Shown here: positions 2,069 to 5,124 of the stretch, one piece after another
How the letters are laid out: every line of letters begins with the position of its first letter
Position numbering within the stretch: position 1 is the first letter of the stretch
Assembly: GCF_000024465.1 (NCBI RefSeq)
Contig: NC_014010.1
Span: 2,641,001-2,705,000, forward strand
Source: Candidatus Puniceispirillum marinum IMCC1322
Lineage (GTDB): Bacteria; Pseudomonadota; Alphaproteobacteria; Puniceispirillales; Puniceispirillaceae
Direction of reading: 5' to 3'
Length of the DNA stretch: 64,000 nucleotides
Program-made: the position numbers and the translations under genes
The notes under the pieces: model-generated
The model's input: only the letters and a program-made list of their open reading frames with translations
Told to the model about the DNA's origin: nothing
The model's database searches: none

Positions 2069-2692
2069 ATGTTGTTTCACGATTGGATATCTCTGGGTTT
2101 TATATGTCTGATGGGAGCGATGTCTCCAGGGCCAAGCTTGCTGGTCATTCTGGCGTGTATGCGCGAAGGTGGCAAAGCATCCGGTTTCATGGCGTCGATT
2201 GGGCATGGTATAGGCGTATCACTATACGCGCTGGCCTCGGCAACCGGTCTGGGGCTTTTGTTGCTTGCGAGTCCGGTAGCGCTGGGTGTTTTGCAGTTTC
2301 TAGGTGCTTGTTTTCTGTTTTATGTTGGCTGGAAGCTGTTTTCCAGCGCGCTTCGTCCCGCTTCCCTCGATGCTGACACTAAAGCCTTGCCGCTTGGCCA
2401 TATGTTTCGTGATGGATTTCTGATTGCCATTTTCAATCCCAAAATTGCGATCTTTTTCCTATCGGTATTCAGCCAGTTTCTGAGCCCCGGGCAATCCAGC
2501 CTTGTGCATGTGCAGATGGCATTGGTGGCTGGAACAATCGATACGCTTGTCTATATCGGGGTTGTGTTGCTGGCCAGCAGTCCTGTGGTGAACAGGCTGT
2601 TGATCGGGCCAAACCGCTATCGCGATCTGTCGATTGGCAGTTTTTTGATGGTTGTGTCGATGGGGCTTGTGTTTAAGCAACTATATAGCTGA
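2069..2692 (+). CDS. LysE/RhtB-family amino acid exporter
   Basis: A 207-residue inner-membrane protein with about six hydrophobic helices. The family signature near the N-terminus (GAMSPGPSLLVILACMREGG) and the NPK motif in the middle (AIFNPKIAIFFLSVF) are characteristic of the LysE/RhtB superfamily, which exports amino acids or related metabolites using the proton gradient. The length is normal for the family. The substrate cannot be told from sequence. The next gene begins after the Pho-type promoter at 2718, so this is probably the last gene of its own unit. Confidence 0.85.
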   Translation: MLFHDWISLGFICLMGAMSPGPSLLVILACMREGGKASGFMASIGHGIGVSLYALASATGLGLLLLASPVALGVLQFLGACFLFYVGWKLFSSALRPASLDADTKALPLGHMFRDGFLIAIFNPKIAIFFLSVFSQFLSPGQSSLVHVQMALVAGTIDTLVYIGVVLLASSPVVNRLLIGPNRYRDLSIGSFLMVVSMGLVFKQLYS

Positions 2693-2717
2693 AGGCATGG
2701 CAACATCAAGCCGGTGT

Positions 2718-2765
2718 CTGTTATATAAATGTAAAATTCTTGTAATATTATTGTCACGCTATAAT
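2718..2765 (+). promoter_or_regulatory. Tandem PhoB box (four half-sites) with -10 element
   Basis: Four 7-base half-sites stand at an exact 11-bp period: CTGTTAT (2718), ATGTAAA (2729), TTGTAAT (2740) and TTGTCAC (2751), separated by 4-base AT-rich spacers. This is the architecture of PhoB operators (consensus CTGTCAT repeated every 11 bp). A perfect -10 hexamer TATAAT is at 2760-2765, so the third repeat lies about where a -35 element would be, as in PhoB-activated promoters. It precedes the plcP-like gene and predicts induction by phosphate starvation. The match was made by eye, not with a scored matrix. Confidence 0.8.
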
Positions 2766-2809
2766 CGCAATATCTGCCGCAATCAATTAAGCATATTTGT
2801 GGTGTGGAT

Positions 2810-3694
2810 ATGTATCCTGAGATTAGTAAATACCGTACGATCTGGATTTCGGATCTACATCTTGGCACCAAAGGGTCGAAAGCTGCCGAAATTTTACATT
2901 TTCTGAAATATACCCAATCGGAAACGCTGTATCTTGTTGGTGATATTATTGATGGCTGGCGTCTGAAACGAAGCTGGTACTGGCCACAGTTACATAATGA
3001 TGTTGTGCAAAAGTTGTTGCGCAAAGCCCGGCACGGCACCCAAGTCTATTATATTCCGGGCAATCATGATGAGGCGGCGCGAAGCTATTACGGCCTTTCA
3101 TTTGGTGATGTGCAAATACATGGTGACTTTATTCACGAAACAGCCGATGGAAAGCGGTTATGGGTTGTGCATGGCGACCTGTTTGACAATGTGATTCAGC
3201 ATGCAAGATGGCTAGCCTATCTTGGGGATTATGCCTATACATTCCTGCTTGTTATGAATCGCTGGCTTAATATTGGCCGGCGGTTTTTCAACTGGCCTTA
3301 TTGGTCATTTTCACAATATCTCAAACTAAAGGTCAAATCAGCGGTTTCATTTATATCGGCTTTTGAAACAGCGATTGTTACCGAGACTAAGCGCAAAAAT
3401 TGCGATGGCGTTGTATGTGGCCATATCCACAAACCCGAAATGCGTGATATTGACGGCATTACCTATTGCAATGACGGTGATTGGGTCGAGTCATTATCGG
3501 CTTTGGTTGAACATCATGACGGGCGTATCGAAATCCTAGAATGGAACGATTTTGTGGCTCTTTACCCATTTATAAAAGATACGCACACGCACACGGCTGC
3601 CGATATTAGCTTTGATGCGCGTGATACAAAGGATGCAACCAAGGGAGAGGCGGCGCCGCAGTCCCTGACTGATGCATTAACCGCTTTAAGGTAA
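2810..3694 (+). CDS. plcP: PlcP-like metallophosphoesterase (phospholipase C type)
   Basis: A 294-residue calcineurin-type metallophosphoesterase carrying every metal motif in order: ISDLHLG (residues 13-19), VGDIIDGW (43-50), PGNHDE (83-88), VVHGD (119-123) and CGHIHKPE (203-210). The family includes LpxH-type UDP-diacylglucosamine hydrolases and PlcP, which releases diacylglycerol from phospholipids under phosphate stress in rhizobia and marine bacteria. I favour PlcP because the gene sits behind a PhoB box and is coupled (TAATG overlap) to a glycosyltransferase that could use diacylglycerol. LpxH activity cannot be excluded from motifs alone. ATG 2810 was chosen over an in-frame GTG at 2804; neither has a strong ribosome site. 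Confidence 0.75.
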   Translation: MYPEISKYRTIWISDLHLGTKGSKAAEILHFLKYTQSETLYLVGDIIDGWRLKRSWYWPQLHNDVVQKLLRKARHGTQVYYIPGNHDEAARSYYGLSFGDVQIHGDFIHETADGKRLWVVHGDLFDNVIQHARWLAYLGDYAYTFLLVMNRWLNIGRRFFNWPYWSFSQYLKLKVKSAVSFISAFETAIVTETKRKNCDGVVCGHIHKPEMRDIDGITYCNDGDWVESLSALVEHHDGRIEILEWNDFVALYPFIKDTHTHTAADISFDARDTKDATKGEAAPQSLTDALTALR

Positions 3695-5124
3695 TGGCCA
3701 CAAAACAATTTAAAATACTGATAGTCAGCGATGCCTGGTATCCTCAGGTTAACGGGGTTGTGCGCACCTTGACCTATACACGCAATATTCTGACCAGTCG
3801 CGGGCATGAGGTCACGATGATTACACCGGATCTGTTCCGATCATTTCCGTGCCCAACCTATCCGGAAATTCGTCTGGCGCTGTTTCCCAGTGCGCGGGTT
3901 GCCGAGATTATCCGTGAGACGGCGCCCGATATTTTGCATATTGCCACCGAAGGACCGCTGGGGATGGCCGCGCGTAATTATGCGGTGCGGCATAATCTGA
4001 ATTTTTCGACAGCCTATCATACGCGGTTTCCCGAATATGTTCATTCGCGCACGATGATACCGTTATCATTGACCTATATGTTTATCCGCTGGTTTCATAA
4101 GCATTCGAAAGCGGTCATGGTGCCGACCCCGACAGTTTTGCGGGATTTACAGACATGGAAGATAGGGAATCCAGTTTACTGGCCTCGCGGTGTCGAGCTG
4201 GATTTATTCACACCAGATGACAAGCGCAAGCCACATAAAAAACCAATCTATCTGTCGGTTGGCCGTGTTGCGGTTGAAAAAAATCTTGAAGCGTTTCTAT
4301 CGCTTGATCTTGATGGCGAAAAATGGGTTGTCGGTGATGGCCCTGCGATGAAAAAGCTGAAAGCCAAATATCCCGATGTCAATTTTATCGGCACCAAGAG
4401 TAAAGAGGATTTGCCGTATTATTATAATCTTGCAGATGTGTTCGTTTTTCCCAGTAAAACAGACACTTTTGGTCTCGTTTTGCTGGAAGCGATGGCCTGT
4501 GGAGTGCCTGTTGCTGCCTTTCCGGTTACAGGTCCGATCGATGTTGTAGGAATGCCGGAAGCGTCACAAGCACCTCAAGGCGGTGTTCTGGATCATGACC
4601 TGAAGGTGGCTTGCGAAGCGGCTCTGAGCTTGCCACGCGATAAGGTGCGTGCCTATGCGGAAACCTTTTCGTGGGATGCGGCGACGTCTTTGTTCGAAAG
4701 TCACCTTGTCGCAAGCCGCGCCGACACGACATATAATATTATTGATAACCCACATAAAGGTAACAAGGGCATTAGCCGCGCAATGCGGGCGGCCAAAAAT
4801 TCCATTGCCGGTCTGGTATTTGCCATTAATGAAGAAAGCGCATTTCGCCAAGAGCTTATTCTGGCGTTGATCCTTGTGCCGGTGGCTGTGTATCTGCCTG
4901 TCACCTATATGGAAAAGACAGTGATGATCGCGTCCGTGATGCTGGTTCTGATTGTTGAATTGCTCAATTCAAGTGTTGAAGCGGCCATTGACCGGATTTC
5001 ATTCGACCATCATGGGCTATCCAAGCGCGCCAAGGATTATGGTAGTGCGGCGGTGTTTCTGGCTTTGGCCTTGTGCGGGGGGATATATGCTGCGGTGCTG
5101 GTATCGTTTCTCTGGCCAGTCTAG
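3694..5124 (+). CDS. Fusion: GT4 glycosyltransferase (Agt-like) plus DgkA-type diacylglycerol kinase
   Basis: A 476-residue protein with two enzymes. Residues 1-345 are a GT4 glycosyltransferase: N-terminal Rossmann start (ILIVSDAWYPQVNGVVRT), SVGRVAVEKN near 188-197 and the nucleotide-sugar loop DTFGLVLLEAMACG near 257-270. Residues 360-476 are a complete prokaryotic diacylglycerol kinase: NEESAFRQE (379-387), VELLNSSVEAAIDR (421-434) and RAKDYGSAAV (445-454), with three membrane helices. These keep the residues equivalent to E. coli Glu28, Glu69, Asn72, Glu76, Lys94 and Asp95. The gene overlaps plcP (TAATG). Inferred role: diacylglycerol freed by PlcP is either glycosylated to a phosphorus-free glycolipid or phosphorylated to phosphatidate by the same polypeptide, on the cytoplasmic face of the inner membrane. 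DgkA is usually a stand-alone protein of about 120 residues. Confidence 0.85.
   Translation: MATKQFKILIVSDAWYPQVNGVVRTLTYTRNILTSRGHEVTMITPDLFRSFPCPTYPEIRLALFPSARVAEIIRETAPDILHIATEGPLGMAARNYAVRHNLNFSTAYHTRFPEYVHSRTMIPLSLTYMFIRWFHKHSKAVMVPTPTVLRDLQTWKIGNPVYWPRGVELDLFTPDDKRKPHKKPIYLSVGRVAVEKNLEAFLSLDLDGEKWVVGDGPAMKKLKAKYPDVNFIGTKSKEDLPYYYNLADVFVFPSKTDTFGLVLLEAMACGVPVAAFPVTGPIDVVGMPEASQAPQGGVLDHDLKVACEAALSLPRDKVRAYAETFSWDAATSLFESHLVASRADTTYNIIDNPHKGNKGISRAMRAAKNSIAGLVFAINEESAFRQELILALILVPVAVYLPVTYMEKTVMIASVMLVLIVELLNSSVEAAIDRISFDHHGLSKRAKDYGSAAVFLALALCGGIYAAVLVSFLWPV

Follow-up and report, generated by a model that had tools for sequence, protein, structure and literature searches.

A single gene in the genome of Candidatus Puniceispirillum marinum IMCC1322, which we take to be a member of the SAR116 clade, joins a family GT4 glycosyltransferase (GT) in frame to a complete diacylglycerol kinase (DgkA). 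The gene was analysed in a window of 64,000 nucleotides (contig NC_014010.1, positions 2,641,001 to 2,705,000). The fusion is a real, conserved, and functionally coherent architecture made of known enzymes; the active-site residues of both parts are kept, the gene stands in an operon with plcP, and within the order Puniceispirillales DgkA is tied to this pathway. From these observations we infer the two activities, their induction by phosphate starvation, their coupling, and their physiological role. The protein is probably a membrane enzyme with two functions that acts where the fate of diacylglycerol (DAG) divides during lipid remodelling under phosphate starvation, and there it would split PlcP-derived DAG between two products. 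The features of the window that bear on this reading are as follows (all on the forward strand).

2740..2757, +: Pho-box-like site TTGTAATATTATTGTCAC, upstream of plcP, 19 of 24 against the consensus
2804..3694, +: gene for a PlcP-like metallophosphoesterase, 296 aa, predicted phospholipase C (Metallophos, Pfam)
3694..5124, +: agt-dgkA fusion gene, 476 aa, a single open frame with GT4 and DAGK_prokar domains
3694..4728, +: GT4 domain, residues 1–345, of the Agt/GTcp type, predicted UDP-sugar:diacylglycerol glycosyltransferase
4723..4767, +: linker, residues about 344–358, pLDDT under 50
4771..5121, +: DgkA domain, about residues 360–476, predicted integral-membrane diacylglycerol kinase

Domains and active-site residues of the fusion protein

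The fusion ORF starts with ATG and contains zero internal stops. Pfam analysis of the protein revealed Glyco_transf_4 at residues 19–170 (E 6.9e-21), Glycos_transf_1 at residues 176–287 (E 5.6e-21), and DAGK_prokar at residues 369–468 (profile positions 2–101 of 102, E 4.6e-29). The DAGK_prokar match (PF01219) scored 100.7 bits against a gathering score of 22.3 and spans the full-length domain, and E. coli-type DgkA chains from the PDB aligned at residues 357–461 with an E-value of about 1e-22. The ORF of 476 aa, the Pfam domains, and the lack of a stop agree with the preliminary description, in which a GT4 enzyme of about 345 residues and a complete DgkA had been placed in one frame. The NCBIfam lipid GT4 models scored 61.1 and 51.5 bits, far under the respective cut-offs of 480 and 400; thus, no curated NCBIfam model names the fusion protein.

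Codons 335–362 of the window gene were searched for in-frame ATG, GTG, and TTG, and none was found, which makes a separate DgkA start by these codons impossible in this gene. Among 34 distinct fusion genes, the equivalent stretch held no start codon in 19 and at least one in 15, so that separate translation of DgkA may be possible in the latter. The 34 represent genome G374 and 40 of the 46 Puniceispirillales genomes with the fusion, six having been left out. The distance from Trp327 to Arg362 was 36–38 residues across all 34 proteins. Part of the linker (NIxDNPHKGN) is similar to the N-terminal YHIxQNPHKGN of the unfused Polynucleobacter DgkA.

The DgkA domain was compared with the E. coli enzyme at positions that we take to be important in its active site. 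The residues were identical at 18 of the 20 compared positions, the exceptions being the equivalents of Val38 (Ala) and Met66 (Leu). The equivalents of E. coli Glu28, Glu69, Asn72, Glu76, Lys94, and Asp95 could be located as Glu381, Glu422, Asn425, Glu429, Lys447, and Asp448, so the six residues announced in the preliminary description are all in place. These six were invariant in all 33 untruncated distinct fusion proteins, and over 16 DgkA positions in the 34 proteins Arg81 alone varied, in one protein. The truncated protein, that of G117, lacks the DgkA positions behind its stop.

For the GT domain, mutational data are available for GTcp, which makes glucosyl-, galactosyl-, and glucuronosyl-DAG according to the available part of PMC8231724. 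The same part of that paper reports loss of activity upon mutation of Gly16, Gly82, Gly85, His104, Arg163, Arg190, Lys195, Asp256, Thr257, Phe258, Gly259, Glu264, and Trp320. Equivalents of all 13 of these GTcp residues, placed by motif and spacing, were kept in 34 of 34 distinct fusion proteins. By the same placement, His109, Asp257, Arg165, and Trp327 were present in every one of the 34; His109/Asp257 are the predicted catalytic His-Asp dyad, and Arg165/Trp327 the predicted DAG-contact residues. The window protein also has both UDP-sugar motifs given for the GTcp group in the available text of PMC8231724 (GRVAXEKN and FPSXTDTFG), as GRVAVEKN and FPSKTDTFG. The dN/dS ratio (Nei-Gojobori) in nine chosen close pairs was 0.056–0.126 for the GT part and, in the eight of the nine with usable dS, 0.02–0.29 for the DgkA part. 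Judged by their residues, both halves look catalytically competent.

An AlphaFold2 model of the fusion, built as a monomer on an 18-row alignment, showed a mean pLDDT of 82.8 and a pTM of 0.67, with a low-confidence stretch at residues 344–358. Its DgkA part formed four helices (360–380, 382–400, 405–437, and 441–473). The fold alignment was confined to the GT part, its rows reaching model residues 1–347 at most. There the model superposed on MshA (rmsd 3.5 over 326 residues) and PimA (rmsd 3.6 over 317 residues), both at Z 29.4, and the top match was sucrose-phosphate synthase (Z 30.1); the fold therefore indicates the GT-B class and not the substrate.

Distribution of the fusion and its unfused relatives

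PF01219 was searched for in 136 genomes of the order Puniceispirillales, of which 47 gave one match each. In 46 of the 47, the match lay in a frame of 464–503 aa which also contained the GT, and in the remaining one, G051, it lay in a frame of 194 aa; DgkA is thus rare outside the fusion in this order. The joined arrangement was found in 46 of the 136 genomes, uninterrupted in 45, with three families represented. When the whole protein was used for the search at E 1e-40, 59 of the 136 genomes matched: 46 from end to end, 12 only in the GT, and one (G051) only in DgkA. The 12 genomes with a GT and no DgkA comprised ten of genus g7 together with G122 and G005. In the genome of IMCC1322 itself (2,753,527 bases, one contig), the fusion was the sole PF01219 match, PhoU was present, and a search for DAGK_cat gave no match.

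The preliminary description had named a frameshift or assembly error falsely joining two genes as what would overturn it. Such an artefact is suggested at most by G276, in which the two parts lie in overlapping separate frames, and by G117, with its in-frame stop. Against it stand the 46 genomes with the joined arrangement, three of which are single-contig (G000, G082, and G124). These genomes rule out the artefact for the order as a whole, and for the joined frame itself we regard it as vanishingly improbable.

In G276 (L163, 3584–4982), agt and dgkA overlap as separate frames, and in G374, of the same family, they are fused (L164, 3571–5043). G276 and G374 therefore offer a close pair for the study of fusion or fission. 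The stop of G117 (L166, 3839–4978) falls within the DgkA part, and DgkA-like sequence goes on behind it; it may represent decay, an error, or a split. The lone DgkA of G051 (L162, 5005–8426) is 164 aa long and adjoins genes for a phosphate-selective porin and a histidine kinase. Its stretch holds neither plcP nor agt, its DgkA groups with family f12, and the bin is listed with 5% contamination.

Beyond the order, DgkA was present in 55 of 385 genomes of the class. Among the matches listed for these 385, the fused form occurred in at least five, four of the order and G374 (family f12). Among the matches listed for 398 genomes of the phylum, an uninterrupted full-length match was found only in the IMCC1322 genome itself, and G779 and G858 gave full-length matches across one stop. 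Further DgkA fusions may exist beyond the matches listed. One pattern scan of IMG/VR contigs for viral copies found none.

Three other long frames were considered as further DgkA fusions and rejected. Pfam gave DAGK_prokar alone in those of G709 and G808. The 536-aa frame of G709 (L169, 3435–5045) ends in DgkA and may be overlong; its roughly 415 residues before DgkA matched no Pfam family at E 1e-5. The G808 frame overlies agt in another frame and so is probably no fusion. The G698 frame shrank to an ORF of only 148 aa when counted from a start codon.

Unfused forms of the same gene set could be found in other lineages. Among the matches listed for family f219, a separate dgkA followed directly behind plcP-agt in all nine GT-matching genomes (L182–L190), and Polynucleobacter L031 showed the same separate plcP-agt-dgkA order; the genes were separate neighbours in 10 of 10 agt-holding loci of Polynucleobacter and relatives. 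Family f219 was taken as Burkholderiaceae because in the tree some of its members are almost identical to Polynucleobacter L031. In L031, L182, L183, and L184, dgkA shares the frame of agt behind a stop. The order dgkA-plcP-agt was seen in L041 (Steroidobacteraceae), L192, and L193. Nine further Polynucleobacter loci (L032–L040) encode a close DgkA with no plcP or agt in the locus DNA examined, so this type of DgkA is not confined to the plcP-agt pathway.

Quick, midpoint-rooted trees were constructed for both domains. The DgkA tree placed the fused domains, the Burkholderiaceae DgkAs, L041, G051, and the f12 DgkAs in one clade (SH-aLRT 96), with the Burkholderiaceae sequences standing among the fused ones on weak branches. 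DgkAs beside plcP-agt in L147 and L193 fell outside the clade of the fused ones. The GT tree placed the fusions in one clade with G284, G276, G374, G098 (for g7), and G122 at a support of 99, and G374 (fused) and G276 (unfused) were nested inside the SAR116-type GT clade. A single fusion followed by splits and losses would fit these trees, and so would repeated fusion.

Gene neighbourhood and a Pho-box-like site

The stop of the plcP-like gene overlaps the ATG of the fusion by 1 base (TAATG). As a candidate identity for this upstream gene, LpxH (UDP-2,3-diacylglucosamine diphosphatase) was rejected, as the scores of 48.3 and 40.5 bits lay far below the respective equivalog cut-offs of 134 and 190.35; by family and position, the product is predicted to be PlcP. 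Coordinate lists compared by eye showed that each of the 46 fusions of the order is immediately preceded by plcP in the same orientation. This position and the overlap place the fusion in the known plcP-agt phosphate-starvation pathway. The operon context, including the Pho-box-like site, is an addition to the preliminary description. In the available part of PMC4796936, PlcP is reported for SAR116, and over 25% of the isolates analysed are reported to carry agt homologues close to plcP.

PlcP was present in 57 of the 136 Puniceispirillales genomes. Genus g7 has the GT and no DgkA; in 8 of its 10 genomes plcP was found, always on a different contig from the GT. In G122 and G005, plcP adjoins the GT and there is no DgkA, so the kinase is present at 46 of the 48 loci of the order with neighbouring plcP and GT; G001 has plcP without a GT. 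In L168 (G098, genus g7; 2468–5014), the GT gene has no adjoining plcP, and a Ppx/GppA phosphatase gene lies convergent to it. Among the scanned neighbours, L163 and L164 have phosphate-selective porin genes upstream of plcP, and behind the fusion comes a gene for a polyphosphate kinase in L178 and for a histidine kinase in L180. The others were acyltransferases, GAPDH, Fae, a primase-like protein, and one without a match, most of them with no evident phosphate link.

The Pho-box-like site of the window was scored against a consensus taken from the available part of PMC8528852. Its imperfect score of 19 of 24 was reached in 4 of 300 base shuffles, and a strict Pho box scan allowing up to 3 mismatches did not list it. 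Taken individually, 7 of 17 plcP upstream regions had a score reached by at most 5 of 300 shuffles, and 10 of 17 were without a clear site. The mean score was 18.25 in 16 plcP upstream regions, fused and unfused loci mixed, against 15.9 at 80 other gene starts of the same loci, a difference with a Mann-Whitney p of 1.2e-5 when kinship is ignored and the weights are self-chosen. A score of 19 of 24 was reached in 6 of the 16 plcP regions and at 5 of the 80 other starts.

Proposed function and comparison with known systems

Both halves belong to families known to use diacylglycerol, and the active-site residues are kept in both, which upholds the shared substrate proposed in the preliminary description. 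As both halves look competent, an enzyme with one substrate and two products is the best reading of the sequence. PlcP, encoded just upstream, would cleave phospholipids to DAG, as its family suggests. On the cytosolic face, the GT domain would combine DAG with a UDP-sugar to yield a phosphorus-free glycolipid, going by the residues proven in GTcp. The DgkA domain, going by the E. coli residues, would use ATP to convert DAG to phosphatidate, which could enter phospholipid synthesis again. The fusion would tether the GT to the membrane at the site where DAG appears and give the two activities a fixed 1:1 ratio, and the supply of UDP-sugar and ATP would decide the fate of each DAG. The benefit could be a guard against DAG build-up, a reversal on the return of phosphate, or an exchange of head groups.

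The presence of a fused kinase in a gene pair that serves to replace phosphorus-containing lipids suggests that the choice between normal and phosphorus-free membrane lipids is built in. The broader reading, in which DgkA is a third component of PlcP-Agt remodelling, not described in the papers searched, and the SAR116-type fusion a two-way switch for each DAG, is offered tentatively, as a possibility that falls slightly short of an even chance. PlcP and DgkA alone would form a futile, ATP-spending cycle, odd under phosphate starvation. The kinase appears optional for remodelling, since 12 of the 136 genomes of the order have the GT and no DgkA; by eye, the kinase was present in 11 of the class genomes with a listed strong GT match (E 5e-93 or better), which number at least 145.

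E. coli DgkA is an enzyme of DAG recycling, and the kinase could in the same way serve head-group exchange or recovery instead of dividing DAG at a single moment, turning DAG to phosphatidate when phosphate returns or DAG is about to accumulate, with the fusion merely securing co-expression. That several lineages have a separate dgkA beside plcP is in keeping with this. An operon alone would already give co-expression, however, and 46 genomes from three families of the order retain the joined form. We consider this explanation unlikely. Quite improbable is a third possibility, that the DgkA part acts mainly to anchor the GT in the membrane and to trimerise it, with incidental kinase activity. 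GTcp, a stand-alone GT, was amenable to purification and to a sizing column (available part of PMC8231724), so tethering would be a gain; in addition, related genomes manage with the GT alone. Yet the kinase residues, needless for a pure anchor, are invariant in 33 of 33 untruncated fusion proteins, and the dN/dS of the DgkA part is low.

The bifunctional branch-point enzyme remains the preferred reading. In the available parts of the papers examined, remodelling under phosphate limitation is drawn as a one-way route, PlcP and then the glycosyltransferase. Conservation of the fused kinase across a marine clade implies active sharing of PlcP-made DAG between two fates; if true, lipid remodelling would be adjustable or reversible. 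As a single protein, the fusion provides a simple genetic handle through point mutations in either half.

The preliminary description had not recognised the fusion as a described system, and no description of a GT-DgkA fusion, or of the kinase in the plcP-agt-dgkA cluster, was found in searches of an open-access PMC library. A term search of the available main text of PMC4796936, PMC8231724, PMC9239053, and PMC8528852 found no word starting with 'kinase'. In the available part of PMC13086504, dgkA/DGK (K00901) appears among the lipid genes in a table of phosphorus-related genes, which counts against full novelty of the idea.

The closest known relatives of the GT half are Agt of Agrobacterium tumefaciens and GTcp of Ca. 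Pelagibacter HTCC7211, the GT4 DAG glycosyltransferases of the plcP-agt pathway, with which the fusion has in common the motifs, the His-Asp dyad, the DAG-contact Arg and Trp, and the place behind plcP. GTcp is a GT only, of 334 aa (available part of PMC8231724), whereas the fusion adds a complete DgkA in the same chain. With E. coli DgkA (PDB 3ze3, 3ze4, and 2kdc; PF01219), the fusion shares the full domain, the six active-site residues, and four helices, those of the fusion being predicted. The E. coli protein is small and stand-alone (121 aa in the 2kdc chain), whereas the DgkA of the fusion carries an N-terminal GT of 345 aa. The plcP-agt-dgkA cluster (L031, L182–L190) has the same three functions in the same order, and its DgkAs share one clade with the fused ones; in the cluster these are three separate genes, whereas in the window agt and dgkA are fused.
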